Position numbers and translations under genes: made by a program
Notes under the pieces: generated by a model
The model's input: the letters and a program-made list of their open reading frames with translations, nothing else
Told to the model about the DNA's origin: nothing
Databases searched by the model: none
Source: Acidobacteriota bacterium
GTDB taxonomy: Bacteria > Acidobacteriota > Terriglobia > Acidiferrales > UBA7541
DNA: 49,721 nt
Assembly (NCBI GenBank): GCA_013286165.1
Contig: JABDGF010000011.1
Location: forward strand, 1 to 49,721
Direction of reading: 5' to 3'
Shown: positions 25,140 to 46,252 of the stretch, piece by piece
Layout: every line of letters begins with the position of its first letter
Numbering within the stretch: position 1 is the stretch's first letter

Positions 25140-25229
25140 GGAGGGGTGGCAGAGCGGTTGAATGCGACGGTCTTGAAAACCGTTGGGCCCGTAAGGGTCT
25201 CGTAGGTTCGAATCCTACCCCCTCCGCCA
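25140..25229 (+). tRNA. tRNA-Ser (anticodon UGA), CCA encoded
   Basis: The acceptor arms GGAGGGG (25140-25146) and CCCCTCC (25219-25225) pair, followed by discriminator G and genomic CCA. The anticodon stem ACGGT/ACCGT encloses CTTGAAA, giving anticodon TGA. The long variable arm (GGGCCCGTAAGGGTCTC) is typical of class II tRNA-Ser, and GGTTCGAATCC is the T arm. tRNA-Ser genes are frequent integration sites, and the DNA to the right has a different gene content. Confidence 0.97.
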
Positions 25230-25460
25230 CGCAGTCTGCTGGTTTCTCTCAGTTCCCATTTACCTCGGAGAAGGTGCTACTTTGCGCCCAGTTCACGCGA
25301 GACAATCTGCACTCGGAGGACGGCTCTACAGCAAACATTCTCCGAGATATCGCAGGAATCGCCTGTGCTCTCCCGAACCACCAGCGAGGTGCACTTCGTA
25401 TTGGCACGAATTCTCGCGTGAGGCCGGCACCCTAAGCCTCAGCAAGAACTTATCCAAAAG

Positions 25461-28855: not shown

Positions 28856-29248
28856 TCAAGAAGGCCGAGCGTCTGAGGCTTTTGAAACTGCATCTCGAAT
28901 CGAGGGCACCAACGTATCGAATAGCGTTGTCTTGTCGAGGACTCGAAATGCGCCGAGTTGTTCGGCTGCCTTCATCAGATCCTCGTCCGCTGGGTGGAAA
29001 GTGATCGCGATCACGGCGCATTCACAAGCTCTGGCTAGCTCAGCCAGATGAGATGGCTGAGAATCCTTACCGCACGGCATTCGAATATCGCAGATCAGCA
29101 CGTCCGCCTTCGCGGACTCTAAGCTTTTAACGGCCTGTTTGAAGTCTTCGGCTTCGCCAACCACCTGTATATCGGCTTGGCTTTCGAGCAATCGTCGGAC
29201 TGCGGCGCGGATCGCGTTCGAATCGTCTGCGATGAAAACCTTAATCAC
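28856..29248 (-). CDS. Single-domain response regulator, type 1, copy a
   Basis: A 130-residue stand-alone receiver with no output domain, starting at GTG behind GAGGG. It keeps the acidic pair in FIADDS, phospho-acceptor Asp54 in LICDIRMP, the Thr in AITF and the Lys in VLDKTTL, so it should be phosphorylated. It probably acts by protein contact, as CheY-like proteins do. A paralogue near 39 kb is about 70% identical by eye. It lies 100 bases downstream of a second receiver gene in the same direction. No histidine kinase is present in the window. Confidence 0.88.
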   Translation of the reverse strand: MIKVFIADDSNAIRAAVRRLLESQADIQVVGEAEDFKQAVKSLESAKADVLICDIRMPCGKDSQPSHLAELARACECAVIAITFHPADEDLMKAAEQLGAFRVLDKTTLFDTLVPSIRDAVSKASDARPS

Positions 29249-29349
29249 GGTCCCTCGTGTTTTAGAGATTCAGTTCCCTCAAAAGGTCGGCAGTGCCTGA
29301 TGTGTGAACAAACCCTACGCGGGTGTACCAAAATGGTCAAGGGGCTCGC

Positions 29350-29709
29350 CTACGCTTCCACCAGCTCTTCGGCTACCGCGACAACCTGACTCACGTTGTC
29401 TTTCTCCATGATTCGCGTTGCCCAAGGAACTTGCGTAGCTTTCACGACGCCCGCGTGCATAGTAAACAGAACTATGGGCACGGTCGGATACAAGGCGCGT
29501 ATTCGTCTGCCCGCTTCTACTCCGGACATACCGGGCATCGCAAGATCAAGGATGACCAAGTCCGGCCTGTGCTGCTTCGCCAGCTCGACGGCCTCCGCGC
29601 CATCCTTAGCTTCAGCGCATATTTCCAGATAAATGTGCTCGTGAAACGCACGGCAAAGCAGCTTCCGCATCAAGGGAGAGTCATCCGCGACCAAAATTCG
29701 TTTCGACAC
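29350..29709 (-). CDS. Single-domain response regulator, type 2, copy a
   Basis: A 119-residue CheY-like receiver starting at GTG. RILVADDSPLMRKLLC, phospho-acceptor Asp55 in LVILDLAMPGMSG, Thr in LFTMH and Lys in IMEKDN are all present. No output domain. It is divergent, across about 100 bases, from a small helical protein gene whose paralogue lies next to the matching receiver near 43 kb. That repeated pairing suggests that receiver and small protein work together. Confidence 0.88.
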   Translation of the reverse strand: MSKRILVADDSPLMRKLLCRAFHEHIYLEICAEAKDGAEAVELAKQHRPDLVILDLAMPGMSGVEAGRRIRALYPTVPIVLFTMHAGVVKATQVPWATRIMEKDNVSQVVAVAEELVEA

Positions 29710-29809
29710 AGTAGCTACAAGGGTGGCCGAAGCTACAGCGTGCGTACATACAGCAAACCACTATGCTCCTGGAAGAATGCTGAGGTATATTCCCATCAGA
29801 GGTCAAAAC

Positions 29810-30055
29810 ATGGCGCAGCCGTACTCCTGGACGGCAGCCTTCGAGAAAGCACAGAGCGAGACCGATCCGACACGGCTACAAGGCGCGGTTATGGCCGCAG
29901 AGGAAGCGATGGTCCAACGGAGGATGGAGCTTTCGGGCGACGACGCCGGGGCGCACCCAGAGCTAGAAGCGCTGCGCGCGGCGGCAATTGAGCTTTTGAA
30001 ATTAAAGACTGAGAAGCTAGGTTGGCCGGGTATTGGTTCGACTCCCAAGCCCTAA
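29810..30055 (+). CDS. Small helical protein, family X, copy a (unknown function)
   Basis: An 81-residue protein; the ATG at 29810 has AGAGGT 6 bases upstream and matches the start of its paralogue near 43.4 kb. Shared pattern: YSW, then AQxExD, VMxAExA, RxxELSxDxAG, and a tail with LLxxKxEKL and WP. About 40% of positions agree by eye. It is predicted to be all-helical and charged, with no membrane segment or known motif. Both copies lie next to a type-2 receiver gene. A partner or regulator of the receiver is an inference only. Confidence 0.65.
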   Translation: MAQPYSWTAAFEKAQSETDPTRLQGAVMAAEEAMVQRRMELSGDDAGAHPELEALRAAAIELLKLKTEKLGWPGIGSTPKP

Positions 30056-30766
30056 CGCGCGGCGATCAGCAGCCCGCCGACCCCACCGAAAATGAGTACC
30101 AGGCGCTTCATGGCGGCAACGTCAAAACTATAGCAAGCCACACGCCCTACTGCTCTGCACTTCGTGCCGCCTTTTTTATCCGGACGACGTGGACGAGTTC
30201 AAGTTGTCGCCCGCCGAGGGTTCGACAAGCCCTCCCCGGTCTGACTGAGCATAGCGGACACGGAACTGAAATCGGGCTGACTCTCAGACGAATAACTTTG
30301 AGCATCCATAGACACTAGCATGCCGGGCCAGTTGCTTTCAGTGCGCTTGCGTACGGACTGCCAGCGGAACCTGCCGATCGCCTAAAGTCCTGGTAAACGC
30401 CGCAACCGGACAAAGGAAGCTGCTGGCACCGCCGGCGAGAATCAAATCTCTGGCAAAGGGGAGGAACGCCGGACTTCCGAATTACGTGTCCACATAATTG
30501 GGAAGTCCGGCGGGGAGACGTTTGGAGAGTTGCCGTCAAGATACGCGACGGCGATGATTGATCCCATACTGCGGTGGCTTGAAACTTCAGAAGAGAGTTA
30601 TGTAGGGCGGCTCGTCGTGGCTCCCAGAAATCTCACAGCATAGTTGATTGTCTTGCTTGTTCTCAAACCGAGCGGGCTTGAGCAAGCCCGGCTTCGGAAC
30701 GGCTCACGTAACGAACTCGTTCGCGCATTCCGCTGACACCGAAACTGCTCGAATTACAGTAAATCC
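30056..30766. other. 711-base gap without a credible gene
   Basis: Only scattered short frames are seen. Two palindromes stand out: GCCGGACTTCC (30468-30478) with GGAAGTCCGGC (30501-30511), extended by AATTA/TAATT to a near-perfect 17-base inverted repeat, and CGGGCTTG-AG-CAAGCCCG (30673-30690). The gap separates the first receiver group from pyrophosphatase. It could be decayed mobile-element DNA, but no transposase remnant is readable. Confidence 0.5.
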
Positions 30767-31333
30767 TTACTTTCGCTTCGCTGCCCTTATTCCCGATTTA
30801 ACCCTTCTTCGTGCCTCGCCGGGACCCTTAACGTCGAGGATGCGGTATTTTTCGCCAGAAAGTTTGTGGTAATCCACAAAAAATTCTCCCAGTTCTTTCA
30901 CGAACTGTTTCCCAAGCTGATTTACGTGCTTGACGCGGGCGTAACTGTGATTTTGTTCTTCTACGGCGACGATGCGGTCATTGCGTATCGTCTTTTTCTT
31001 GCTGTCTTGCTCGCCCTCAATGACTCCGATGATCCTGCACTTCAGTAAACAACCGGCGAACGCCGGTTCGTCCATCAACACCAGAACGTCGGTAGGGTCT
31101 CCGTCTTGGGCTAACGTGGATGGCACGAAACCGAAATCATAGGGAAAGGTCATACCGGCTGGAAGAACTTTTGTCAGAGCGAATATTTTGAGATCCGTAT
31201 CGAAAGCGAACTTGTTCCTGCTTCCTTTCGGAGTCTCAATAACGACTTGAAGAAGATCGGAATCGTCCTCGTCTTTGGGCGCGAGATGGACAGGGTTCGC
31301 CATCCCCGATTCTTTTTGCCGGTTCTTAGCCAT
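30767..31333 (-). CDS. ppa: Inorganic pyrophosphatase, family I
   Basis: A 188-residue soluble enzyme from the ATG at 31333, with CAGGAGAG upstream; a GTG three codons earlier is less well placed. The signature DGDPTDVLVL with three metal-binding Asp is at about residue 80, preceded by FPYDFGFVPSTLAQ. Family I enzymes hydrolyse pyrophosphate to phosphate with Mg2+. KNRQKESGMANPVHL at the start and the basic RRRVKSGIRAAKRK tail are additions relative to the usual core of about 175 residues. In this setting it may be a second, accessory copy rather than the housekeeping gene; that cannot be tested here. Confidence 0.88.
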   Translation of the reverse strand: MAKNRQKESGMANPVHLAPKDEDDSDLLQVVIETPKGSRNKFAFDTDLKIFALTKVLPAGMTFPYDFGFVPSTLAQDGDPTDVLVLMDEPAFAGCLLKCRIIGVIEGEQDSKKKTIRNDRIVAVEEQNHSYARVKHVNQLGKQFVKELGEFFVDYHKLSGEKYRILDVKGPGEARRRVKSGIRAAKRK

Positions 31334-31445
31334 GAGTTTCACTCTCCTGAGTCGGTCCCATTGTGTGCAGGTGTAATCAAATTAGATGATTCGCTCCACG
31401 AGCCGGGCCAGTCTTGCAGCCCGGTTCGCTCCGAGGTGGACATTT

Positions 31446-31802
31446 ATGTGGAAAGACCTGCTCATACGCTTCTTCGTTGGGGGAGCATTCGTGTCTGCCT
31501 TCGCAGCTGTCGGAACCGTCCTAAAGCCCAAGAGTTTTGCTGGTCTTTTCGGAGCGTCTCCTGCGATCGCGCTAAGCACACTTTTGCTGACTTCACGGAG
31601 CAACGGGGCGGTTTACGCCGCGTTGGAGGCTCGCTCGGGAATGATTGGCGCTCTTGCTTTCTGCGCCTACGCGTACTGCGTGATGAAGTTGATCGCGACG
31701 CGAAGGCCCGACGTTAAGTGGCCGACGTACGGATTTCTCGTCGTGTGGTTCGCTGTTGCGTTCAGCATTTGGTGGCTTCTTGGACTGGGGCACACGTCGT
31801 GA
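31446..31802 (+). CDS. Small membrane protein, DUF3147-like, first of a pair
   Basis: A 118-residue protein from the ATG at 31446, with GAGGTGG upstream. It has about four membrane spans: LIRFFVGGAFVSAFAAVGTV, a Pro-containing ASPAIALSTLLL helix, GALAFCAYAYCVMKLI and a Trp-rich VVWFAVAFSIWWLLG. IRFxxGG and FGASPAI match segments of the next protein, so the two are distant homologues. The stop overlaps the GTG start of the next gene (GTGA), pointing to coupled translation and probably a heteromeric complex. Function unknown. Confidence 0.7.
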   Translation: MWKDLLIRFFVGGAFVSAFAAVGTVLKPKSFAGLFGASPAIALSTLLLTSRSNGAVYAALEARSGMIGALAFCAYAYCVMKLIATRRPDVKWPTYGFLVVWFAVAFSIWWLLGLGHTS

Positions 31803-32227
31803 TCGTCAAACTCAATTGGGCCGCGGTGAAAGAAACGTCGGGAAAGGATTACGTTATCCGATTCATATTGGGAGGGCTTGTCACAGTCGCAACTGGACTG
31901 ATCGCGAAAAAGTTCGGACCCACAGTGGGCGGATTATTTCTGGCGTTTCCAGCCATATTCCCCGCGACGGCGACCTTAATCGCAGAACAACAAGCGCATA
32001 AAAAAGAACGCTACTCGCTTAAGGGGATGGTCAGAGGTCGCCTCGCTGTTGCTGTGGAAGCAAAAGGAACATCGCTGGGGACGGTGGGTCTCGCAGGATT
32101 TCTGCTTACTGCGTGGCTACTCATCAGAAGCTGCTCGCCGTGTACGGTGTTTCTGCTAGCAACCAGCGCCTGGGTGGTGACGTCGGTTTCACTGTGGTTT
32201 CTCATGAAACGAGTGTTCCGCCGCTGA
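31799..32227 (+). CDS. Small membrane protein, DUF3147-like, second of a pair
   Basis: A 142-residue protein whose GTG start overlaps the stop of the previous gene by four bases. It shows VIRFILGGLVTVATGLIAKK, FGPTVGGLFLAFPAIFPATA, GTVGLAGFLLTAWLLI and VFLLATSAWVVTSVSLWFLM as four membrane segments, with a cytoplasmic-looking basic loop (EQQAHKKERYSLKGMVRGRL). The pattern LGGLVxxxxxLxAxxxGPxxGGLxxAFPA is typical of DUF3147. Paired small multi-span proteins of this kind recall heterodimeric transporters, but no substrate is known. Confidence 0.75.
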   Translation: MIVKLNWAAVKETSGKDYVIRFILGGLVTVATGLIAKKFGPTVGGLFLAFPAIFPATATLIAEQQAHKKERYSLKGMVRGRLAVAVEAKGTSLGTVGLAGFLLTAWLLIRSCSPCTVFLLATSAWVVTSVSLWFLMKRVFRR

Positions 32228-32248
32228 TAGCCCTTAGTCGGGAGATTC

Positions 32249-33076
32249 CTATAGAACAGACGATTCACGTACCGCTCGCACCCAACTCTGCAGCTCGTCG
32301 CGGGTCATACAATTAACGATTCGCGAGCCCGGAATTTTCGCCGCCAGCGCGGAGGCTGCTGAAAATGCCATGAACCGAAGTTGCGACGGACCGTGGGAAT
32401 CGGTACCTAACGAGATTCGGCATCCGGACTTACGCGCCAGCTCCAGGAGGTCAGGGCTTAAATCCTGCCTGTCGGGGTAGCCGTCAATCTCCACAGCCTT
32501 ATCGAGGTCCGCAGCCATGTCGAATACTCTGCTCCAGTTGGCCGTAAGACCCATTCGGTAATTGTAAATTCTGCCGCGAGGATGACCTAGGATCTGAATC
32601 GCCGGGTTGCGAAGTGCCGCGATATAACGCTCCGTCTGATCTTCTGTTTTCCGAAGAGAGGAGTGAAAGCAGCCGAGAACTATGTCGAGTTCTGCTAGCG
32701 CGTCCCTCTCCATATCAACTTCACCACCCGGACTCAAATTCACTTCTACTGAGCGCAACACTCTGAGTTTTTCGCCGCGTTTCCTTAACGTACTGTTTAC
32801 TCCAACGATTTCACGTCCTTGCTTGCGAAGTTCTGGTTCGTCGATTCCTCCAGCGATCTTGAGTCCTTTGGAGTGATCTGTGATCGCGATGTACTCGTAC
32901 CCGCGTTCAGCGGCAGCCTCCGCCATTTCGGCGACAGTTCCTTCTCCATCGCTCCAGACCGAGTGCATCTGGAGGTCACCTTTAAGGTTTGACAGCCATT
33001 GTGTATGCTGACCCAGAATCGTCTCGGTTTGAGTGATGGTACGGAAGCCGCAGCGGATCGGAGGTACTTCAGTCAC
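32249..33076 (-). CDS. PHP-domain phosphoesterase part of an HhH-PHP protein
   Basis: A 275-residue PHP domain. Metal-binding motifs are LQMHSVWSDG, AITDHSKG, RSVEVNLSP, GCFHSSL, LGHPRGRIYN and GTDSHGPSQ. They resemble the C-terminal part of PolX-type proteins, and PHP domains hydrolyse phosphoesters, often in DNA. The frame continues upstream: the codon before its GTG is TAG, and beyond it the same frame encodes a helix-hairpin-helix domain. The joint (EKPP, stop, VTEVPPIRCGF) reads as one continuous linker. So this is either the second half of a gene broken by one base change, or it restarts at the GTG directly after the stop. Confidence 0.85.
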   Translation of the reverse strand: MTEVPPIRCGFRTITQTETILGQHTQWLSNLKGDLQMHSVWSDGEGTVAEMAEAAAERGYEYIAITDHSKGLKIAGGIDEPELRKQGREIVGVNSTLRKRGEKLRVLRSVEVNLSPGGEVDMERDALAELDIVLGCFHSSLRKTEDQTERYIAALRNPAIQILGHPRGRIYNYRMGLTANWSRVFDMAADLDKAVEIDGYPDRQDLSPDLLELARKSGCRISLGTDSHGPSQLRFMAFSAASALAAKIPGSRIVNCMTRDELQSWVRAVRESSVL

Positions 33077-33328
33077 CTAGGGCGGCTTTTCGATCCATTT
33101 CCGAAGCTCCTTTGCGATAAATGGCCCGACGCCGCTCAGTTCAGTCAACTGTCGCTGTGCGCGGTGTAAGTCGCTCGCTTCCTCAGGCCACAGAAACGCT
33201 TTGCGAGCGGCGCGGCGAAACGCCTTGTTCAACGGTGGCGGAACCTCGCCGCCGCGATTGGCAAGGAGTTCGGCGAGATCCGCGTTCGAAAGAGACTCAA
33301 CGGCTCGCTTCTTCGTCAATTTCGCCAC
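33077..33328 (-). CDS. Helix-hairpin-helix N-terminal part of the split HhH-PHP protein
   Basis: An 83-residue product from GTG at 33328. LTELSGVGPFIAKELRKWI is a helix-hairpin-helix DNA-binding motif; the preceding helices resemble the N-terminal region of PolX/PHP proteins. It ends with TAG at 33077-33079, immediately followed in the same frame by GTG and the PHP domain. Full-length relatives, as I recall them, carry both domains with the linker PP-E-V-x-E-P, which suggests that GAG became TAG here. Alternatives are a sequencing error, amber readthrough or stop-start reinitiation. Confidence 0.75.
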   Translation of the reverse strand: MAKLTKKRAVESLSNADLAELLANRGGEVPPPLNKAFRRAARKAFLWPEEASDLHRAQRQLTELSGVGPFIAKELRKWIEKPP

Positions 33329-33445
33329 GCTTTTAGCTCAACCAACCGAACGACATTTGGCTACTCCACGTTGCCGCCATAACCCTCCCCTAAACTGCCG
33401 TAAGGCCCGTTTCAGCCTGCGGCTGTCACGTTCTAACGCCCCTAA

Positions 33446-34621
33446 TTACCTTGCGGACGCTGCCTTTCGCTTCGACTGACCAGCGGCAGCGGGCTTTAGC
33501 ACGACCTTCGTCCACCCGTTCTTTCTGTCGTCGAAATTCTTATAAGCGTTCGGCGCTTCACTCAGATCAAGCTGGTGCGAAATTATGGCTGAGGGCTTCG
33601 CCTTTCCCACGTGGATCAGCTCGCGTAGCTTTCGATTGTAGGCCTTGACGTTTGCTTGGCCGGTGCGAATCTTCTGGCCTTTGAACCAGAAATTTCCGAA
33701 GTCGAAGGCAAGTTCACCTTTCTTCGCGAGCTTGTCCTCGGCTTTCGGATCTTTCGCGACGAAGACACCAACTACGCCGATGTTGCCCGTAGCCTTGACG
33801 GACTTCACGAGCCAATTCATCGTGAGATTCGGAACTTCTTCGCCTTTGGTATTCGTGCACTGATATCCGACGGCTTCGCAGCCGCAGTCCGTGCCTTTAC
33901 CCTCGGTTAGTTCCAGGATTTGATCTGCCGGATCACCCTTTTTCTGATCAATGGGAATCGCGCCTAATTCCTTGGCCAGTTTTAGGCGGTCGGGATGCTG
34001 ATCTACCACCATGATTTTCGAAGCGCCCTGAACCGATGCCGAAATTGCCGCCATTAATCCGACGGGGCCTGCGCCATAGATCACGACAGAATCTCCCGGA
34101 CAAAGTTTGGCGAGGCGCGTTGCATGCCAGCCAGTCGGGAAAATGTCCGAGAGCATCACGTAGTCGTTTTCTTTTTCGGAAACATCCTCGGGCAACTTGA
34201 GACAGTTGAAATCAGCGTAAGGAACTCTCAGGTAGTCAGCCTGGCCACCACTATATGGTCCCATTCCGGCAAATCCGTAGGCTGCGCCAGCGTTAGGCGG
34301 GTTCGTCGTAAGACAGAATCCAGTCAGTCCGCGTTCGCAGTTCTCGCAAAAGCCACAGGCAACATTGAACGGCAAACAAACATAATCGCCCTTATTTATG
34401 GAATCGACCGCGTCTCCGACCTCGATGACTTTGCCCAAGTTTTCGTGACCGAGAACCTTGCCTTTCTCAACATCTGTCCGACCTTCATACATGTGCAGGT
34501 CGGACCCGCAGATATTTGTGGTTGTAATTTCCACTAACACATCGGTTGCTTTTTCGATTTTTGCGTCTGGAACTTCATTAACACTCACATCTTTAGGGCC
34601 GTTGTAAACGAGAGCCTTCAT
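33446..34621 (-). CDS. Zinc-dependent alcohol dehydrogenase, glutathione-independent formaldehyde dehydrogenase type
   Basis: A 391-residue medium-chain dehydrogenase with GGAGG upstream of ATG. Catalytic zinc ligands lie in NICGSDLHMYEG and VLGHENLGKV. Structural zinc Cys are in ACGFCENCERGLTGFC. The NAD site is VVIYGAGPVGLMAA. Length and sequence (FPTGWHATRLA, DCGCEAVGYQC, FWFKGQKIRTGQANV) point to the formaldehyde-dehydrogenase-like branch, which dismutates or oxidises formaldehyde with bound NAD. The tail SKRKAASAR is basic. It stands alone; the upstream 569-base gap has only one weak small frame. A stress or detoxification role fits the neighbouring stress-type genes. Confidence 0.9.
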   Translation of the reverse strand: MKALVYNGPKDVSVNEVPDAKIEKATDVLVEITTTNICGSDLHMYEGRTDVEKGKVLGHENLGKVIEVGDAVDSINKGDYVCLPFNVACGFCENCERGLTGFCLTTNPPNAGAAYGFAGMGPYSGGQADYLRVPYADFNCLKLPEDVSEKENDYVMLSDIFPTGWHATRLAKLCPGDSVVIYGAGPVGLMAAISASVQGASKIMVVDQHPDRLKLAKELGAIPIDQKKGDPADQILELTEGKGTDCGCEAVGYQCTNTKGEEVPNLTMNWLVKSVKATGNIGVVGVFVAKDPKAEDKLAKKGELAFDFGNFWFKGQKIRTGQANVKAYNRKLRELIHVGKAKPSAIISHQLDLSEAPNAYKNFDDRKNGWTKVVLKPAAAGQSKRKAASAR

Positions 34622-34816
34622 TGGAAAACCTCCAAACTTAGTGCTGAACTCACCTCATCCTTTCAGCCGACCACCAAGAGTTGAATCAGGCCTTCTGGGT
34701 AGAGATTCATTCGTGAACTTGTAGAAACGCCGAGACGGGATTGAATGCCGCAGGTGGTCTAATTCAGTGATCGTCAAACTTTAGGCCGGAGCGAGGAATC
34801 GCGCCGCGCTTTTCGT

Positions 34817-35011
34817 TCACTTTGTCACAATTGAACGCATCCAATCGAGGAAAGCCTTCACGAGCGAGGTTCGCTTTCGGATCGCCTGAGATTGCGGGAT
34901 GAGTTTGACCTCAGGGGCATCGGGCCAGCGTTCGTCGAAAGGCAGCCGCTCACGCATGTTGGGAAGGATTCCCCAAGTCAACGAACTGGAGTAAACAAGA
35001 ATCCGCAGCAT
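34817..35011 (-). CDS. Possible small hypothetical protein
   Basis: A 64-residue frame with mixed composition (MRERLPFDERWPDAPEVKLI, later SLVKAFLDWMRSIVTK). No ribosome site stands before the first ATG and no motif is recognised. It is the only readable frame in the 569-base gap between the dehydrogenase and kinase genes. It could equally be a chance frame. Confidence 0.25.
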   Translation of the reverse strand: MLRILVYSSSLTWGILPNMRERLPFDERWPDAPEVKLIPQSQAIRKRTSLVKAFLDWMRSIVTK

Positions 35012-35190
35012 GGTTATGTTTATCAGAGCAGCCGAAATGGAGGCAATCGAATGAATACCTCAGTAGTTCGGCTCCGTCGTCAGCCTCGCCGCCGGTTCGA
35101 CCATGCGCAACTAGATTGCACGCTGGCTTTCGCTTTGGGAGCGTGCGAACCTAGCATCTTTCAACAGCCCATAGCTTCTGCTCAGGCGCG

Positions 35191-38136
35191 ATGATCGGCC
35201 AGAATATCTCCCACTACCGCATTCTGGAAAAGCTCGGCGGCGGAGGCATGGGCGTCGTCTACAAAGCCGAAGACACGCGCCTTCATCGCTTTGTTGCGCT
35301 GAAATTCCTCCCCCACGATGTGGCCGCGACTCCGCAGGCTCTCGCGCGTTTTGAACGCGAAGCGCAGGCAGCATCCGCGTTGGACCACGCTCACATTTGT
35401 ACGGTATATGAAATCGGTGAGCACAACGGTGAGCCGTTCATCGCGATGCAATTTCTGGAAGGTCAGACTCTGAAGCATCTGATCAGCAACCGTCCCCTCG
35501 CGCTCGATCAGCTACTGGAATATGCGATTGAAGTCACCGACGCGCTTGACGCCGCGCACTCCGAAGGAATCATCCATCGCGACATCAAGCCGGCAAATAT
35601 TTTCATAACGAAACGCGGCCACGCGAAGGTTCTCGATTTTGGACTCGCAAAACTCAATCCGGCGACTGACACCTCTGGCATCACTGCCGGTGCAACGCCG
35701 CTGCCACAGGAATTGCTTACGAGTCCCGGTACCTCAGTCGGGACTGTCGCTTATATGTCGCCCGAGCAGGTGCGCGGGAAGGATTTGGATCGGCGCACCG
35801 ATCTTTTTTCTTTCGGTGTCGTGCTATACGAAGCCGCTACCGGCGTAATGCCATTTCGCGGGGATACATCCGGCGTCATTTTCGACGCCATTCTGAATCG
35901 CGAACCAACGGCACCTCTGAGACTTAACGCGGATGTTCCAGCGCGCCTGGAAGAAATCATTCACAAAGCGTTAGAGAAAGATCGCAGTCTTCGTTACCAA
36001 TCCGCCGCAGATTTGCGAGCGGATTTACAACGCACCAAGCGTGATCTCGAATCCAGCCACCGCGCCGAGGTGCTGAAAGCAGAGCCCATGCCCTCGTCGG
36101 ATTCCGCACGCAGACCTGGATTGGAAGTCGGCTCGTTGGTACAAAACACGGCGCGCGAAGAAGGCATGGGCTACGGATCCGTTTCGGAAGCTGCACTGAG
36201 CAACGCGTCTGATGGCGGCTTCGGGCAAGCCAGCGGAACGGCAGGATCGCGCTCTGATTCCTCGCAGACGAACTCCCGTCACAGCGATCTCATCGTCCAG
36301 AAATCCCGGATTCATATGCCAATCGTCTCCGTTCTCGGACTGTTGCTCGTTGGAGCCGCGATTTTCGCCAGCTATTCACTGGTGCACCGTAATCCTGCCG
36401 AACCTTTCCTTACGTATACCGCCGCTCCGATCACTGACAGCGGCACTGCCGAGGCTACCGCCGTCTCGCCTGATGGCAGATTTCTCGCGCTCGTGGACCG
36501 CAGCGCAAACCGTCAGAGCCTTCGGCTACGCAACATCGCTACAGGTAGCGATACGGAGGTGGTTCACGGCGCACCCAGGGCTCAACTTGGTGGCCCCCAA
36601 TTTTCGCCTGATGGAAATTACATTTACTTTTGCAAATCCGATACACCCGTTGGATGCGACCTCTACCGCGCTCCCGTACTGGGCGGTGCGCCTGAACTAA
36701 TTTCACGGGACACCGACGGCAACGTAACGTTCGCTCCTGATGGTAAAACCATTGCATATTCCCGAAGCAATGACCCCGTGGTCGGTAAGTGGGCTCTGCT
36801 CGTCGCAAACGCCGACGGCTCGGACGAAAAGCCGCTGATCACGACGGAGGCAAAAGAGTCACCAACTTCTTTAGCATGGTCGCCCGATGGCCACCGCATC
36901 GCGATTTCTACGTTCAGCTTTCGCGATCAGGGCCTGGGCCGAATCGACATGTTCGATCTGGATCACAACGTCCTCGATAAATTCGTCCGCGGTAAGGATT
37001 TACTTCCATTCGGAATAGCATGGACTCCGGACGGAAACTTTCTGTTGTGCGTATACGTGCAAATGGGTGTCCACAATCTTACGTATCAAGTTGGATCTTA
37101 CGGTTATCCGAGCGGCAAGTTCCGAACGATTACGAACGACGTTTCATCGTATCGGGCGTTCAGTTTGTCCGCGGACGGTAAGACCCTTGCGGCGGTTCAA
37201 ACCGAGATAGCCAGTCAGCTCGATATCTTCCCGGCAAATGGAAGCGGCTCCGGTACAACTGTCCCCGGTCTCGGGCGCCAGACATATCTTGGAGGGTTCG
37301 ATTGGACGGCTAGAGACGAGCTACTGGTTACCGTAGGAGGCCGATTGGTCAGAACGTCACCGGACGGCTCCAGTCAAGCGGTGATTTTAAACAACGCAGC
37401 GAGCTTTATGATGGATCCAGTTTCATGCGATGGCGATCGTTTCGTGGCGCTCAACTGGATCTTCAGTTCTGCAGAGGGGGCGGTTCACATCTGGAAAGCT
37501 AACTGGGACGGTTCGGGCAGGTCCCAGGTGGCTCAGATGGGCGGCAACGGGGTGCTATGGGGGTGTTCACCCGATGGCAAATGGATCTATTACTCGGATA
37601 ATCCGCCCCTGTTAGGAGTCGCGCGCGTGGCTCCGAGCGGGGGGAAGCCGGAAGTTGTGCCCGGTTTCGAATATCCCGATGCGAATGTAGAGGGCCTGGC
37701 CATCTCCTCGGACGGTAAATCACTGGCGGCATTCGTTCAAAGGGTCCAGCCGACCACTCAAACCTACATTAACTCCATCGACGTCTTGAATCTCGAAACT
37801 ACCGGCAAGTCCTCCGCTCGCACGATTCGTCTGGACCCAAATCTCAATATCGTGTTTTATCAACCCGGTCCGCCGAGTGCCGCGGGGTTTCACTGGACTC
37901 CGGGAAACAATGCTCTTGCGTACATCGTGGAGGAGAACGGCGTGGACAATGTCTGGAATCAGCCGCTGGACGGCTCCAAGGCGGCGAAGCTTACGAATTT
38001 CACAAGTCAGAAGATTGCAGACTTTCGGTGGTCGCGGGACGGCAAAAATCTCGCAGTACTTCACTACACCGACGCCGCGGACGTTGTGCTGTTACGGGAT
38101 ACATCCGGCAGGACAGGCGGCACCAGTCGGCAATAG
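35191..38136 (+). CDS. Ser/Thr protein kinase with C-terminal WD40/TolB-like beta-propeller
   Basis: A 981-residue membrane kinase. The kinase domain (about 9-280) is complete: GGGGMG loop, Lys38 in [13 protein letters not shown] with catalytic Asp131, and DFG at 149-151. A Ser-rich linker leads to one membrane span at about 376-396 ([20 protein letters not shown]). The outer part has repeated propeller blades with xSPDGxx patterns ([57 protein letters not shown]). Such receptor kinases are common in Acidobacteria and sense unknown signals. It ends about 230 bases before an XRE regulator in the same direction. Confidence 0.94.
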
Positions 38137-38367
38137 CGACCGTAGACGTTCTCAATGTGCCTGGGGCCGTTCCATAGTGGACATTACCCCAGACGACTAA
38201 TGCGTAGTAAATCGACGCTTCACAAATTCCTAGAGTTAGCGCTTATCAATATTCCATTGAATTGCAGTAGCAGGGCGGACGGATACGCTCTTGATTGCAG
38301 TACGAGCAGTTCATCGGATTGTCCGACAGTTGGCCAGTGCTGCGGTATCCTGATGCGCGGAGGATTC

Positions 38368-38736
38368 ATGGAAATCGGACGTAAGTTGCGGGCATTGCGG
38401 GAAGAGAAGGAAATGTCGCAAGGTGACATCGAAAGAGCCACAGGTTTGCTTCGCTGTTATATCAGTAGGGTCGAGCACGGTCACACAGTGCCAGCCATCG
38501 AGACGTTGGAGAAGATGGCGAAGGCACTCGATGTGCCTTTCTGGCAGTTATTCCACGACGGAAATACCAAAGCTGTTCCGCTCAGGTTGCGCAACGTTGG
38601 TAAGGCGCAAAAAAGATCGGCGAAAGGCGACGCTCATATTTCAGAAGTTCGGAAGCGTTTCGTAAAAATGAATCCGAGAGATCAAAAACTCTTTCTGATA
38701 TTGGCAATGAAGTTCGCGAAAGAAGCCGAGGAATAA
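38368..38736 (+). CDS. XRE-family helix-turn-helix regulator
   Basis: A 122-residue protein; the ATG at 38368 is fixed by GGAGG 6 bases upstream. Residues 1-60 form a Cro/C1-type helix-turn-helix (IGRKLRALREEKEMSQGDIE, YISRVEHGHTVPAIETLEKM, ALDVPFWQLF). The C-terminal half is basic (KAQKRSAKGD) and ends with a helix (DQKLFLILAMKFAKEAEE). The pattern matches acidobacterial stand-alone XRE proteins. A hairpin at 38738-38759 follows the stop. Targets unknown. Confidence 0.85.
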   Translation: MEIGRKLRALREEKEMSQGDIERATGLLRCYISRVEHGHTVPAIETLEKMAKALDVPFWQLFHDGNTKAVPLRLRNVGKAQKRSAKGDAHISEVRKRFVKMNPRDQKLFLILAMKFAKEAEE

Positions 38737-38737
38737 A

Positions 38738-38759
38738 ATCGCGGAATGGAATCCGCGAT
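38738..38759 (+). terminator. Hairpin after the XRE gene, weak terminator
   Basis: ATCGCGGA and TCCGCGAT form a perfect 8-bp stem with a 6-base loop two bases after the stop. No T-run follows, so termination would be weak; the second arm also lies in the start of a decayed reading frame. Confidence 0.35.
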
Positions 38760-38940
38760 CCTCGTCGAAGCGCAACGCGAACTAAACAAACACAAATGAG
38801 ACTACTTCGTCATCGGCGACGGTGTCAGCATCGCTGCGGCTGGTCAAGGTGTTGCGGTAGTCGGCTGCGTTGAGTGCAATCGCGCGTTTCAAACGTCGCA
38901 GCAAAACATGCGGCGTTATGTGCCGCTTGCTCCACCACGA
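38746..38940 (+). pseudogene. Remnant of a small CxxC protein interrupted by TGA
   Basis: From the ATG the frame gives MESAILVEAQRELNKHK, then TGA (38797-38799), then continues DYFVIGDGVSIAAAGQGVAV, VGCVECNRAFQTSQQNMRRYV. Both sides read as one small protein with a CxxC motif, and a Trp codon (TGG) would restore it. I recall acidobacterial small proteins of the form ELKKHTWDTFV...GCPxC, so the resemblance is suggestive but from memory. The 3' end overlaps the convergent receiver gene. Probably decayed. Confidence 0.4.
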
Positions 38941-39302
38941 ACTGCTTCTCTTATCGCGGGCACCAATGAATCAAACAGAGTTGTTTTGTCCAGCACTCGA
39001 AAAGCGCCGAGCTGTTCGACCGCCTGCCTTAGATCTTCATCGGGCTGCGTAAAGGTCACAGCGATTACGACGCAATCACAAGCTTGCGCCAGCTGCGCCA
39101 GATCCTTTGGCTGGGATCCGTTGCCTGACGGCATTCGAAGGTCGCAAATCAAAACGTGAGGGTTCGCGGTCTTTAGAGTCCTTACGGCCTGTTTGAAGTC
39201 CTCCGCTTCACCAACCACACCAATATCGGGTTCGCTTTCGCGTAACCTACGCACCGCCGCACGGATCGCGCTTGAATCGTCAGCGATAAAAGCCCGAATC
39301 AT
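38916..39302 (-). CDS. Single-domain response regulator, type 1, copy b
   Basis: A 128-residue receiver with AGAGGAA before ATG. FIADDSSAIRAAVRRL, phospho-acceptor Asp54 in LICDLRMP, Thr in AVTF and Lys in VLDKTTL are conserved. It is about 70% identical by eye to the receiver at 28.9 kb, including the unusual stretch EAEDFKQAV and the end AFRVLDKTTLFDSLVP. No output domain. It lies last in a series of minus-strand genes that includes the kinase-hydrolase fusion and the second type-2 receiver. Confidence 0.88.
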   Translation of the reverse strand: MIRAFIADDSSAIRAAVRRLRESEPDIGVVGEAEDFKQAVRTLKTANPHVLICDLRMPSGNGSQPKDLAQLAQACDCVVIAVTFTQPDEDLRQAVEQLGAFRVLDKTTLFDSLVPAIREAVRGGASGT

Positions 39303-39335
39303 TATTCCTCTTTTTAGCCCTTCTGAAATTTAGTC

Positions 39336-40244
39336 TCATGGGGACTGTTCAAAAACGCAGACGTACGAATTGAAAAACATATACGACGCAGCGGAGCTTC
39401 CAAACAAACCAGATCCCTCGGCGTCACACCATGCTTCGGCCCACATCCATACCCGGTACTGTCTATCAGCATTCGCGAAGAAGTAGGTGTCCGAAGGGAA
39501 ACTCACCGCGAGTTGATTATTGTGATTCTCATACCAGCCAGTGCCGTCCGACCACTGGGTAATTCTCCGGTCCACATCGATTTGATGCGTTTGACCACGT
39601 AAGTCCCAGCTTTCGATAAGCACGCCGATGAAAGCATTGTTGTGCGCAGCGTAGCCCCAAGAATCATCATCCCAGCTGTAATATCCAACCGTATCGGCTC
39701 CGAAGCGAACAAATGTATTGTTCGCGATCGGTTGGAACCACACCGCGATGCCGGCACCGGCCCAAACCGATTCACTGCCATCGGACACATTAGTTTCTAC
39801 TATGAAATTTCCTTCAGACGCGTTCGGGATGCCGAATCCATAGTTACCGCTGTCTGACAATTCACCGGTGCCGTTGTTCCACATTTGATCGTACGGAAGT
39901 CCACGAAACGTCAAAATCGAACCGGAGCGGACTGGATTCTCGATGCGAGGTTTTGCCCGCAGGTCTGGTTTCCGTTTCGCCAAGCGTTTCGCAACACCGA
40001 GTTTCTTAGCTGCCGCTACGGCTTCGGCATTTCCGCTAATTATGCGATGAACCGGAGCGAGCAATGCGCGGTTAAGTCTTGCCGTCTCAGCGAATCGCGC
40101 TTTACGAATCTGCGCATCTTGTCGTAGCGTTTTTTCAAGTGGAAACGGTTTGTTACGAAACAGCGGACCTGGCTTCGAACCAGTTAGGGCGCTGACTTTC
40201 TCGGACAGTAATTTCGCCGCTTCGGCGGGCTTTCGGATTGCCAT
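39336..40244 (-). CDS. Hypothetical protein with basic helical N-terminus and beta-rich C-terminus
   Basis: A 302-residue protein with a strong site (AAGGAGAG) before ATG. Residues 1-105 are Lys/Arg-rich and helical with no signal peptide (MAIRKPAEAAKLLSEKVSAL, AKRLAKRKPDLRAKPRIE). Residues 110-302 are rich in Trp, Tyr, Phe and Asn (MWNNGTGELSDSGNYGFGIP, VGYYSWDDDSWGYAAHNN, YRVWMWAEAWCDAEG) and look like a jelly-roll or lectin-like beta domain. I do not recognise a family. It lies between the kinase-hydrolase fusion and a receiver, all on the minus strand. An exported domain without a visible signal is odd; a non-classical or phage-derived secretion route is possible. Confidence 0.7.
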   Translation of the reverse strand: MAIRKPAEAAKLLSEKVSALTGSKPGPLFRNKPFPLEKTLRQDAQIRKARFAETARLNRALLAPVHRIISGNAEAVAAAKKLGVAKRLAKRKPDLRAKPRIENPVRSGSILTFRGLPYDQMWNNGTGELSDSGNYGFGIPNASEGNFIVETNVSDGSESVWAGAGIAVWFQPIANNTFVRFGADTVGYYSWDDDSWGYAAHNNAFIGVLIESWDLRGQTHQIDVDRRITQWSDGTGWYENHNNQLAVSFPSDTYFFANADRQYRVWMWAEAWCDAEGSGLFGSSAASYMFFNSYVCVFEQSP

Positions 40245-40433
40245 AGTTCTCTCCTTTCAGCTGGTACCGGTTTGAAAGTTCAAGAAGTGAGCGCGGGCCT
40301 AGGCGGAATCCACGTCGAGAGGAGGTCCAACGAGCGGTTCCGGTGTACGTATCGAAAGGCCGACACTACACCGTTTAATAGGATTATCAAGAACTTCCGT
40401 CGAACGACCGGAGCACGATTCAGAACACGAAAG

Positions 40434-42272
40434 TTAGCCTGCGTTGTGCCACCCTAGGAACGCTCCGAGTTCCTCGAGGAACACGCTCCAGGCCGGTTCC
40501 TCCGCCAGCTGAATATGATTGGCACTGTTGAGCGGAACAAACCGGGCCCCGGGAATTTCGGAGGCAAGAATCCGACCTTCTTCGGCGGGTATGACTCGAT
40601 CGCGATCGGCGTGGAAGACGATCGTCGGCACCGCGACTTTGGGCAAGAGATCGCGGACGCTAATCTCATCGATCAACGTCAGAATACGGGCAGCATTCTC
40701 CGGGCTCGCCGATACTCGCTGCAGATCATTGAACCACTCGCGTTGCTCGGCTGAAGCCTTAGGAAAATAGAACTTCGTAAACATCGACTTAAAATCCGGA
40801 TTGTTCTTGCCCCAACCCATCCGCACGAGGGTCTGCAATGCGCGCCGCGCCGCCATTTCTTCCTCTGTTCCTCGTGCAGCCAAACCCCGTGAGAACGCAC
40901 CGAGCAGAATTAGGTGACTCACTCGTTCTGGATGACGTACGGCGTAGTCGATGGCTACCGCGCCGCCCTGCGATATCCCTAGCAGAGCAAATCGATCGAC
41001 GCCTGCCGCCTGAACGACCGTTTCCAAGTCCCGAACCCAAAGGGCGAAGGACATTTCTTTAACGTCCCACTGCGACAACCCGTTGCCCCGTTCGTCGTAG
41101 CGGATTAGGCGGTTATGTTTTGGCAACTCCGTGAGCCAGTGTTTCCAGATCGGGCTGTTCCACTCGTAGTCCAAATGGTTGAGCCAATTGGCGGATTTTA
41201 TTACTGGGTATCCTGAGCCAACGCTCGCGTAGGCCAGCCGGACGCCGTCCGTAGCGGTGCAGAATTGGATTTTTTGCCGTGGTGTCGAGACCGTCGAGCC
41301 TGTCTTTGAAACTGGGGTGACGAAGCCTTCCCCGGCATTCGGTTCAGCACTGACGTCGATTCGGTCCGTGCTTATGTGGGTCGCATCGCCCGCATTCGAG
41401 TCTCGCCGCACCCGCCTCAAATCCGCCCGCATGTCGGCCGCATGTTGGTATCTGAGATTGCGGTCTTTTTCGAGTGCCTTGTTGATGATCCTCGCTAGCT
41501 CCGGCGATGTAGCAGGATTCACTGACATAGGCGAAACCGGCACTCGATTCAGAATCGCCTCGAAAATCAGGCCACTCGTACTTCCGCGAAACGGAAGCGC
41601 GCCCGTCGCCATCTCATATAGCACCGCGCCGAACGAGAATAAATCCGTTCGCGCATCTAGAGGCTTGCCGCTCACCTGCTCCGGCGACATGTACGCCACC
41701 GTGCCCATCGCCGAACCAGGACCTGTCAAATCTTTCGCCGCAGCCTCGGTCGAGGCTGTAACGTTGACATTCTCCTCGGGCTCTCGCGTTATCTTCGCCA
41801 AACCAAAATCCAAGATCTTTGCGTTGCCGCGAGCGGTGATAAAAATATTCGCCGGTTTGATGTCGCGATGGACGATGCCCTTTGCGTGCGCCGCATCGAG
41901 AGCGTCTGCGATTTCGATTCCCAACCCGAACAGCATCTCCTGTGGTAGCGCGCGTCCGTCGATGCGATGCCTCAGCGTGATCCCTTCAAGACATTCCATC
42001 GCGATGAACGGATGCCCATCCTGCTCGCCGACATCGTAGATTGTGCAAATGTTGGGATGGTTCAGTGCGGACGCAGCCTGCGCCTCTCGTTGAAAACGCG
42101 CCAGCGTGTGCGGATCGCGTGCGAGAGCAGGTGGGAGAAATTTCAGCGCGACGAATCGCTTGAGGCGCGTGTCTTCTGCTTTGTAGACCACGCCCATTCC
42201 GCCAGCGCCGATCTTCTCGACGATGCGGTAGTGCGAGACAGTGCGGCCGATCGGCGGCTGCGGATCTGGCAT
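40434..42272 (-). CDS. Ser/Thr protein kinase fused to an alpha/beta hydrolase
   Basis: A 612-residue cytoplasmic two-domain protein. The kinase (about 12-285) is complete: GAGGMG, Lys44, HRDIKPAN with Asp137 and DFG at 155-157. A disordered linker (about 290-335) leads to an alpha/beta hydrolase: DERGNGLS, the nucleophile elbow GISQGG (Ser434), ADRDRVIP (Asp558) and [10 protein letters not shown] (His586), so the triad looks intact. No membrane span separates the domains. The hydrolase type, starting [20 protein letters not shown], is also known fused to cyclase and LuxR domains. Kinase control of the hydrolase, or small-molecule sensing by it, is an inference. Confidence 0.92.
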
Positions 42273-42404
42273 GTCGCGTTATCTTAGGTTGCGTGTAGGG
42301 GCAAGTCAACGAACCGGCGCGCGCAGCTTAGTGACCGGGTCGTAGGATCCAATACAGGTACGACTTTGTGTTAAGGACTCCGGAGCGCAACACAGTTCTT
42401 CAGG

Positions 42405-42593
42405 CTAATTGGCCGGTGGTATCACGAAGCGAATTCCGAGTTGTTTCTCGACCGCGTTAGCAGTGTCGCCTCCAAATAACCCCGCGCAAAGAACCAAGAT
42501 TTCATTCACGGCGGTTTGCCGGTCATGCCCCTGTCTGAGCGAGTCTTCGACGGCTAGTTTCGCCCATTCAGCGGCCTTTAGGTTGAGCGTCAC
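42405..42593 (-). CDS. Small helical protein, family Y, copy a (unknown function)
   Basis: A 62-residue protein starting at GTG. Pattern GHDRQTAVNEILVLCAGLFG then KQLGIRFVIPP is shared with the 65-residue protein near 43.9 kb (GRDRQDAINEALLACAQIFG, NLGIKLIM). The start site is weakly supported, with no clear ribosome site. No known domain. It lies between the kinase-hydrolase gene and a receiver gene in the same direction. Confidence 0.55.
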   Translation of the reverse strand: MTLNLKAAEWAKLAVEDSLRQGHDRQTAVNEILVLCAGLFGGDTANAVEKQLGIRFVIPPAN

Positions 42594-42737
42594 TTTGATG
42601 GTGGGAACTCCGCAGTGAGGGCTGGGTTTGCCGTTTAGGCACGGCGGCCAAGGCAGTCAGACTATCGTCCACTATGCACGGACGAAATACAGGGAAGGCC
42701 TTGGATTGGGCTGGGACGTGACTACATTCGGAAGGAA

Positions 42738-43106
42738 TTAGACTGGAGCTAGTTGGTGTACGTGAAACAGCAACGTATCAATTTCCGTCTTCGGAACGAT
42801 TCGGTCAATCAGTGAGCTAAGTATGCTGGCTTGTCCTTGAAGCGCGTTATCGTGCAGCGTGAATAGGATGATCGGAACGTTGGGCATTAGTGGCTTCAGC
42901 TGCTTTGCGGCAGCAATCCCACTCATAACGGGCATGCTGAAATCCAAAATAATGAGGTCAGGATGGCACCGTATGGCAATCTCGATTGCTTCCTTTCCAT
43001 TCTTGGCTTGCTCGCACAGTTCGTAACCCGCCTCGCGTTCGAACACTTCGCATAGCAATTTGCGAACGCGCGGATCATCGTCAGCAACAAGAATTACTTT
43101 AGCCAT
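42738..43106 (-). CDS. Single-domain response regulator, type 2, copy b
   Basis: A 122-residue receiver from the ATG at 43106. VILVADDDPRVRKLLCEVF, phospho-acceptor Asp55 in LIILDFSMPVMSG, Thr in LFTLH and Lys in IVPKTEI are present. It parallels the receiver at 29.4 kb in length and in DLxILDxxMPxMSG and the FTxH block, but the final third diverges. No output domain. The next gene upstream encodes a family-X small protein, as also seen beside the other type-2 receiver. Confidence 0.88.
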   Translation of the reverse strand: MAKVILVADDDPRVRKLLCEVFEREAGYELCEQAKNGKEAIEIAIRCHPDLIILDFSMPVMSGIAAAKQLKPLMPNVPIILFTLHDNALQGQASILSSLIDRIVPKTEIDTLLFHVHQLAPV

Positions 43107-43209
43107 CACACACCCACGTCGAGCACTTCTGATAGTTAGAACATCAGACGCAAGGCAAGGGAGCGATACAGCAGATGAGGTATTTCGACGGGAGCGGACG
43201 TACAGAGTA

Positions 43210-43473
43210 CTAGGAAGTTTTGTCGAAATCGGCTTCTTTCAGTCCTGGCATGGGCCAGTTTAAACGCTCGGACTTTATGTGCAGCAAGTCGTTTAGTGCG
43301 GATTGGATCTCCCGAGACTCTGTTCGAGCGGCTTGACCAGCTCCGTCCGAACTCAACTCCTGCATGCGCTCGAATATCGCGCCCTCGGCTTCCATCACGC
43401 GGTCGTGAAGTTTAGCCAGGTCGGGCTCGTCTTGAGCCTGCCGAAAAACACTTTGCCACGAATAGCTAGGCAT
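43210..43473 (-). CDS. Small helical protein, family X, copy b (unknown function)
   Basis: An 87-residue protein with a G-rich site before ATG. MPSYSWQSVFRQAQDEPDL, VMEAEGAIFERMQELSSDGA and LLHIKSERLNWPMPG match the copy at 29.8 kb; about 40% of positions agree by eye. It has six or seven extra residues at the end. It lies 100 bases upstream of a type-2 receiver gene in the same direction and is probably co-transcribed with it. No motif suggests a reaction. Confidence 0.65.
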   Translation of the reverse strand: MPSYSWQSVFRQAQDEPDLAKLHDRVMEAEGAIFERMQELSSDGAGQAARTESREIQSALNDLLHIKSERLNWPMPGLKEADFDKTS

Positions 43474-43701
43474 CGTTGGCCCCCGTTTTCCCGATTGTCG
43501 GTTAACAGGTTGGACGCCGGAGGGAGGGAGAGCGCGGCGAGGAAGGTGTTAAGTGACTATCCGACGATACGCCCGCGTACAGCGGAATGCAAGGAACAGC
43601 TCTTTAGTGCCTGATTCGTTTACTCAATCTAGGCACAGGCGGGTATTCAGTTCACGACCACGGCGTGGGACTTTCAAGAGTGAGGTCAGTCGGAGGCCTA
43701 T

Positions 43702-43848
43702 GTGCTCTACGGATATGGACTAATCGCGACACTGGTTATCCTGAACTTGATCCTCTGGCTTATGTGTCGCGCAGAGGGGTCCGCAAACAAGGCCGAGCGC
43801 GCGGCTGCATCGGAGCGGCGATCCAAGGCTAAGGTTCGCCCAGGTTAG
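43702..43848 (+). CDS. 48-residue single-span membrane protein
   Basis: GTG start with GGAGG 5 bases upstream. The first 22 residues are one membrane helix (LYGYGLIATLVILNLILWLM), followed by Cys and a charged tail (AERAAASERRSKAKV). The N-terminus is likely outside and the basic tail inside. The stop overlaps the convergent family-Y gene by four bases. The good ribosome site and clean hydrophobic pattern support a real small gene; function unknown. Confidence 0.5.
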   Translation: MLYGYGLIATLVILNLILWLMCRAEGSANKAERAAASERRSKAKVRPG

Positions 43849-44042
43849 TTTGGTTGCGTCATGATTAGCTTTATCCCCAGATTCCACTCAGCATCGCCCA
43901 ACGCTTCCGCTCCGAATATTTGAGCGCACGCGAGCAGAGCCTCGTTGATGGCGTCTTGGCGGTCTCGGCCGCTATCCAGCAAGTCCTTCAACGTGAGTTG
44001 GACCCACAATAGCGCTTTTCGGTTTTCGGTAGGATTTTCCAA
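43845..44042 (-). CDS. Small helical protein, family Y, copy b (unknown function)
   Basis: A 65-residue protein starting at TTG with GGGGA upstream. ALLWVQLTLKDLLDSGRDRQ and NEALLACAQIFGAEALG match copy a at 42.4 kb; the GxDRQ-x-A-x-NE core, CA, FG and LGI are shared. Both copies flank the receiver and family-X genes. Predicted as two or three helices; no domain recognised. The shared layout suggests a role with the neighbouring receivers, which is inference. Confidence 0.55.
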   Translation of the reverse strand: MENPTENRKALLWVQLTLKDLLDSGRDRQDAINEALLACAQIFGAEALGDAEWNLGIKLIMTQPN

Positions 44043-45078: not shown

Positions 45079-45282
45079 TTACAGCGCCATTCGAAGTTCC
45101 TTCGCTACATAAAAACAGTTGCCGATGAAGAGGATTGAGTAATTCTCCTTCGCGCAGAAAAGGTCCGCGTCGGCCTTCGCGGCTTGTTCGGAATCGTACT
45201 GTTTTGCTAGCACTTTGAAAGGAACCCAGAAGTGCCGGTGAGTACCGTCTAGCTCATTCACGGCGAGAAAGACTTCACTCAT
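45079..45282 (-). CDS. Small hypothetical protein (67 residues)
   Basis: ATG with GGTGAG about 9 bases upstream. MSEVFLAVNELDGTHRHFWV begins a probable alpha/beta fold; the middle (DSEQAAKADADLFCAKE) is helical, the end (YSILFIGNCFYVAKELRMAL) a beta strand pair. Its plan resembles the 68-residue protein at 46.0 kb (start VYLNLI, central ASAKDAADAIARIG, end HLAFVNGKDFVALE), perhaps as distant relatives. Function unknown. Confidence 0.5.
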   Translation of the reverse strand: MSEVFLAVNELDGTHRHFWVPFKVLAKQYDSEQAAKADADLFCAKENYSILFIGNCFYVAKELRMAL

Positions 45283-46045: not shown

Positions 46046-46252
46046 CTACTTATTGGTCTGTTCCAGTGCTACGAAGTCTTTCCCGTTAACAAACGCCAAG
46101 TGGGTCGTCTCACCCATTAACGAGCCGCCGATACGCGCGATCGCGTCGGCAGCATCTTTGGCGCTGGCGAAAGGCGTAGCGCGTGAAATATCAGTCCAAA
46201 CGAAATTATTCGGCGCGGGTGCTGCAATTAAATTTAGGTAAACCTTAGGCAC
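46046..46252 (-). CDS. Small hypothetical protein (68 residues)
   Basis: GTG start with GGAG about 9 bases upstream. MPKVYLNLIAAPAPNNFVWT, a central helix (SAKDAADAIARIGGSLMG) and a final strand (THLAFVNGKDFVALEQTNK). No domain recognised. It lies 78 bases downstream of the YXWGXW gene in the same direction. Its plan recalls the 67-residue protein at 45.1 kb. Confidence 0.5.
   Translation of the reverse strand: MPKVYLNLIAAPAPNNFVWTDISRATPFASAKDAADAIARIGGSLMGETTHLAFVNGKDFVALEQTNK

Follow-up and report, generated by a model that had tools for sequence, protein, structure and literature searches.

What do stand-alone receivers act through when they carry no effector domain? The question is raised by contig JABDGF010000011.1 (C11) of an Acidobacteriota bacterium, all 49,721 nucleotides of which are called the window here; the contig belongs to a source assembly of 2.19 Mb in 120 contigs that is 55% complete. 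A single-domain receiver carries no output domain, and for many such proteins no target is known. The window encodes two receivers of a first type (R1a and R1b), two of a second type (R2a and R2b), two copies of a small protein X (X1 and X2) and two of a small protein Y (Y1 and Y2). All eight genes were found where the initial annotation had placed them, and that annotation had taken them for a duplicated signalling module in which receivers act through small protein partners. On sequence comparisons, X is a lineage-specific family of its own, occurring in places as a free-standing protein of roughly 65–100 residues, and its genes lie beside single-domain receivers well above chance. We tentatively propose that X may be an adaptor or output part that is detached from the phosphorylated receivers it serves, a reading that we consider quite possible but short of probable.

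X1 (81 aa, 29810–30055, plus strand) is divergent from R2a (29350–29709, minus strand) with a gap of 100 bp, and X2 (87 aa, 43210–43473, minus strand) lies upstream of R2b (42738–43109, minus strand) on the same strand with a gap of 103 bp. Both copies thus adjoin a type-2 receiver as annotated, although X1 is encoded on the strand opposite to its neighbor. X1 and X2 share 41% identity (z 13 against shuffles). A profile made from these two gave 39 matches in 15 of the 89 genomes of the family, whereas a 25-row X profile, which also matches X1, gave 90 matches in 29 of the 95 genomes of the order, with up to 10 per genome; the 90 include two domains in one open reading frame (ORF) as well as weak or broken matches. 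In a 396-genome sample of the phylum the 25-row profile matched the source genome alone, an absence to be trusted less than one in the order search, since at most 15 candidates were scored in the genomes listed. The six X-related loci that carry names are all from Acidobacteria metagenome-assembled genomes, and five of them are from isolates named palsa.

X was confirmed as undescribed in the family libraries searched: of 25 X domains scanned against Pfam, NCBIfam and PHROG, none gave an acceptable match (best E 0.013), and no family in these libraries was matched by more than one member. The X profile had no credible match among PDB sequences, and a weak one to TRRAP (E 0.014) was taken as chance. 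No X relatives were found in viral contigs, no relatives in plasmids (P0002 and P0004 only), and nothing recognizable as X in term searches of open-licence PMC papers. All 74 X rows compared share one Trp, and three further residues (Glu, Arg and again Glu) are conserved at 96–97%; there is no conserved His column and no invariant Gln, Asn or Asp. An Hpt identity for X was rejected, since the His is missing and none of the three Hpt (PF01627) matches of the genome falls at an X gene. X is predicted to fold as three helices: AlphaFold2, run on X2 with a 10-row alignment, placed them at residues 6–14, 19–42 and 47–69 (mean pLDDT 81.5, pTM 0.65, last ten residues poorly predicted), and the amphipathic pattern of the family agrees with the helical prediction.

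To estimate how often X lies beside receivers, we used the stretches around all 90 order-level X matches, with single-domain receivers defined as those of at most 170 aa; the local receiver profile was built after a spurious receiver match in L044 had been discarded. Genes were called with a purpose-made simple codon score rather than a standard gene finder, and the immediate-neighbor test omits 11 stretches in which this caller missed X (an X ORF is nevertheless present in nine of these; L149 and L150 hold broken matches only). Single-domain receivers made up 13 of 141 immediate neighbors of X, 3 of 130 genes two places off and 2 of 603 genes farther away. Without the window, the counts were 11 of 137 immediate neighbors versus 1 of 569 far genes (p 1.1e-7). 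The distance test used all 81 stretches, 78 of which hold the 85 X ORFs, and took as controls called genes of at most 300 aa lying at least 3 kb from X. A receiver was present within 700 bp of 14 of the 85 X ORFs and of 2 of the 307 control genes (p 1.7e-8), or of 12 of 83 X ORFs versus 2 of 307 controls with the window excluded (p 3e-7). Clustering X at 60% identity gave 54 clusters, of which 14 (12 without the window) had a receiver-adjacent member; the pairs are thus drawn from divergent X clusters. A whole-genome null based on copy numbers and genome sizes gave 0.22 expected close pairs of X and an R2-like receiver outside the source genome; at least 9 were counted by eye from the match lists. 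The copy number of X also tracked the number of R2-like receivers over the 89 genomes (rho 0.46), and so did the per-Mb densities (rho 0.44, within-genus permutation p 4e-4). Receivers with further domains were not enriched beside X (1 of 141 vs. 7 of 603). In one genome (G044) an X gene stands between two receivers on one strand, and a HisKA_3 kinase is encoded next door on the other strand.

The receivers themselves appear fit for phosphorylation. R1a (28856–29248, Response_reg E 4.5e-17) and R1b (38916–39302, E 4e-16), both on the minus strand, are 68% identical, whereas R2a (E 8e-23) and R2b (E 4e-20) are about 40% identical; Response_reg, with E from 4e-16 to 8e-23, is the sole family over the cut-off in these proteins of 119–130 aa, in agreement with the annotated lack of an output domain. 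Read by eye, the phosphorylation residues (acid pair, phospho-Asp, Thr/Ser and Lys) are present in all four, as had been claimed, and are retained in 18 of 18 aligned receivers, namely 17 X-adjacent ones plus R1b (the four of the window are included; those of L041, which is frameshifted, and of L129 are not). By domain content, R1 and R2 are single-domain response regulators. The closest relatives of R2b are receivers of other species of the genus (48–55% identity), and Spo0F is among its nearest solved relatives by sequence. A third close R1 copy is present in the same genome (G000:C6:6628). In a genome without X (G032), a small CPxC..C protein starting MKRSELT is encoded 76–93 bp from single-domain receivers (L168:386-634 and L177:1688-1900), perhaps another small receiver neighbor.

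X was also detected as part of larger proteins. Pfam and the X profile together indicated a PAS_9-X fusion in two genomes (L121 and L137), a PilZ-X-TonB_C fusion in one (L109) and an X-TonB_C fusion in one (L058). In L121 and L137 the order is PAS then X with no kinase domain recognized, that is, a sensor whose only other recognized part is X. A hydrophobic N-terminal stretch precedes X in L053 (by eye), two X domains stand in tandem in L037, and in two genomes (L128 and L136) a similar unnamed N-terminal part of about 90 residues lies ahead of X. Among separate neighbors, CRP-type regulators were enriched (9 of 141 immediate neighbors vs. 4 of 603 far genes, p 9e-5; by distance, 11 of 85 X ORFs vs. 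11 of 307 controls) and PilZ proteins were suggestive (5 of 141 vs. 8 of 603, p 0.08), while kinase/PAS proteins were not enriched (2 of 141 vs. 6 of 603). A REC-PAS-GGDEF-EAL protein is encoded 270 bp from one X. Taken together, the fusions and the varied neighbors suggest that X is a signalling adaptor domain of general use and not solely a receiver partner.

In the proposed mechanism, a histidine kinase encoded elsewhere would phosphorylate R1 or R2, and the phosphorylated receiver would then bind X or release it. X, an all-helical domain by prediction that is fused to PAS, PilZ or TonB-type parts in places and is a separate gene beside a receiver elsewhere, would relay the signal to another protein, possibly one of the neighboring CRP-type regulators. 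The more specific form of this proposal, in which X would be a free-standing, interchangeable output domain, so that the usual receiver-output protein would have been split into two genes in one Acidobacteriota lineage, we consider rather unlikely. If it were true, the same small helical output would be reused with receivers, PAS sensors and PilZ-TonB proteins, with the choice of neighbor setting the input. In either form X would be a concrete candidate partner for lone receivers, open to simple binding assays, and it is a domain unnamed in all libraries searched.

The kinase in this mechanism may be encoded elsewhere in the genome or in its missing part. As annotated, the contig has no HATPase_c match at E ≤ 1e-5; however, this absence is uninformative, because the contig is one of a 55%-complete genome with 23 HATPase_c matches elsewhere. 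The genome has 52 receiver matches, four of them in the window, and its 23 HATPase_c and 3 Hpt matches all lie outside the window. The annotation had suggested looking for a hybrid kinase elsewhere in the genome; judged by frame lengths, HATPase_c and a receiver share one long frame, as they do in hybrid kinases, on C3, C10, C25, C29, C38 and C53.

Several observations weigh against a receiver-linked role of X. The initial annotation had named X lying mostly far from receivers as what would speak against its proposal, and taken literally this is what was found, since for 67 of the 85 X ORFs the nearest 700 bp contain no receiver. The expectation that X stays next to receivers held as adjacency well above chance and failed for most copies. 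Within the same distance, 58 of the 85 X ORFs have neither a receiver nor a CRP-type regulator; 9 are accompanied by a CRP-type regulator alone, and 4 by a receiver of more than 170 aa. The orientation varies among 15 X-receiver pairs (7 on the same strand, 5 convergent and 3 divergent), so the pair is not a fixed operon. Many R2-like receivers lack a neighboring X, and 20 stretches around such receivers yielded no X match better than E 2. Some counted loci are damaged: the pair in L041 consists of an X with an internal stop and a frameshifted receiver, and the X of L131, whose neighbor is included in the immediate-neighbor count, holds three stops. A three-helix fold, moreover, is not specific to any function. 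In an X tree of 82 rows, which leaves out 3 of the 85 for being under about 45 residues and lacks support at 50 of 78 inner branches, receiver-adjacent copies occur in scattered positions (12 state changes); the pairing is therefore not clearly one inherited block. Set against CRP-adjacent rows, the receiver-adjacent ones did not cluster beyond shuffles either (6 vs. a shuffle mean of 7.3; 98 of 500 shuffles were as low).

The strongest rival to the adaptor reading is that there is no functional link at all, X, single-domain receivers and CRP-type regulators being expanded families that gather in the same islands of gene turnover, so that adjacency would reflect only the landing places of new small genes. 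We regard this as a real possibility, though not the leading one. The shuffled orientation, the lack of X at the 20 receiver loci, the 67 X ORFs away from receivers and the scatter on the X tree are all consistent with it, and so is the enrichment of CRP-type regulators beside X. On the other hand, the surroundings of receivers without X speak against it. In 18 of the 20 stretches (two were dropped because the caller missed the receiver) plus two R1-like loci of the source genome, neither CRP-type regulators (2 of 52 vs. 2 of 132) nor small genes (18 of 52 vs. 52 of 132) were enriched. PilZ proteins and histidine kinases were not enriched there either, and other receivers were clustered (5 of 52 vs. 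0 of 132). The excess of small genes near X itself is weak (67 of 135 vs. 239 of 585, p 0.07), and receivers with further domains, as given above, do not share the enrichment of the single-domain ones.

It is improbable that X instead controls the phosphorylation state of the receivers, as a phosphatase or protector like Spo0E, CheZ or Rap. A small protein, helical by prediction, beside phosphorylatable receivers would suit such a role, and Rap phosphatases act on Spo0F, which is among the nearest solved relatives of R2b. However, the catalytic motifs of receiver phosphatases carry an invariant Gln, Asn or Asp, and those polar residues that are nearly invariant in X are Glu and Arg. The Spo0E-like profile (PF09388) had no match in the genome at E ≤ 1, and X was rejected as a member of that family; the control search gave matches in 7 of 14 genomes, of which one exceeded the cut-off. 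Nor do the PAS-X and PilZ-X-TonB fusions call for a phosphatase.

Least probable is partner switching of the PhyR-NepR kind, in which a phosphorylated receiver would titrate X from a sigma factor or regulator. A small protein does adjoin a receiver here, and receiver-driven switching of a small protein is known (PMC5964349). However, X was rejected as a NepR because profile PF18557 had no match in the genome at E ≤ 1 (control matches in 8 of 14 genomes, one of them above the cut-off). Neither R1 nor R2 has a sigma-like part, and the ECF sigma-like genes near X are 1.6–5.1 kb away with none adjacent, no systematic sigma search having been made. These genes, called ECF sigma factor-like on sequence resemblance, lie at 1.6 kb (L106), 2.8 kb (L136) and 5.1 kb (L065).

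We then return to the window and to the origin of its two sets. The R1, R2, X and Y pairs are real coding paralogues, because their alignment scores are 13–36 standard deviations above shuffles and the third codon position is the most divergent in all four. A single duplication of a four-gene module was nevertheless rejected. In the receiver tree R1a and R1b are sisters, whereas R2a and R2b sit in separate subclades, each of which also contains receivers from congeneric species; among the pairs in the window, R1a/R1b alone retain DNA similarity. The 'duplicated module' of the initial annotation is a loose term, R1 and R2 being adjacent in the first set only and 3.4 kb apart in the second. X2 is nearer to a third X of the genome (G000:C7:38164, L033) than to X1. 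Since the R2 subclades differ and X2 is nearer to the third X, the two sets were most likely assembled from separately duplicated genes, as far as sequence relationships tell. X2 and the third X share 72% DNA identity over 241 bp (window 43354–43593 for X2), and because the conserved DNA extends about 120 bp ahead of the start codon, this suggests that X may have been copied together with its own promoter. A CRP-type regulator is encoded 381 bp from the third X, and the 16.5-kb stretch around this X contains no receiver.

Y1 (62 aa, 42405–42593, minus strand) and Y2 (65 aa, 43845–44042, minus strand) are 40% identical (z 14 against shuffles). By these comparisons Y is a small protein unrelated to X, a relationship between the two families having been rejected when both were compared, and it is known from the source genome only. 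The Y profile had no match beyond the two window genes among the 89 genomes of the family and the 396 of the phylum sample, so the association of Y with receivers comes from the window alone. Neither copy matched Pfam, NCBIfam or PHROG; no Y relatives were found in viral contigs, and none of Y2 in plasmids. One weak candidate in L165 (E 0.005 among 12,085 ORFs), a 125-aa ORF at a contig end, was not accepted as Y; we take it to be reminiscent of a transposon-associated family.

The two Ser/Thr kinases that the annotation had noted among these genes are present, one fused to a hydrolase as described. They are a kinase with a WD40-like propeller (35191–38136, plus strand; Pkinase, PD40) and a kinase fused to an alpha/beta hydrolase (40434–42272, minus strand; Pkinase, Abhydrolase_1). 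However, Ser/Thr kinases are not X neighbors (0 of 141 vs. 12 of 603); both were judged incidental and rejected as parts of a module. Between R1b and the kinase-hydrolase lies a 302-aa ORF (39336–40244) with no Pfam, NCBIfam or PHROG match. Two small minus-strand genes with no Pfam match (45079–45282 and 46046–46252) are located near DUF892 and Transgly_assoc genes. At 25140–26198 a tRNA-Ser stands just ahead of a C-terminal fragment of an AAA_12/MTES_1575 protein, which may be what is left of an integrated element.

Compared with known systems, R1 and R2 resemble the single-domain response regulators (CheY, DivK, CpdR, MrrA and Spo0F), a class described in PMC5964349, in being a receiver domain alone with its phosphorylation residues; they differ in that some receivers here adjoin the new small protein X. 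The system with the Cle tail motif likewise comprises a group of lone CheY-like receivers within a single lineage, and one X beside a GGDEF-EAL protein and some X near PilZ genes add to the likeness, but the X-PilZ link is weak. PhyR-NepR shares the pairing of a small protein with a receiver protein, and differs by the sigma-like domain that R1 and R2 lack and by the NepR family, which was not matched here. Spo0E-like and other receiver phosphatases share a small helical protein acting with a receiver; the Spo0E-like family was not matched, and X has no invariant Gln, Asn or Asp. The connectors and anti-adaptors PmrD and IraP/IraM/IraD are small proteins that bind particular multi-domain receivers and alter their output. 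X is like them in being a small protein that may act on receiver domains, and it differs from them as a multi-copy domain that is also fused to PAS, PilZ and TonB parts.

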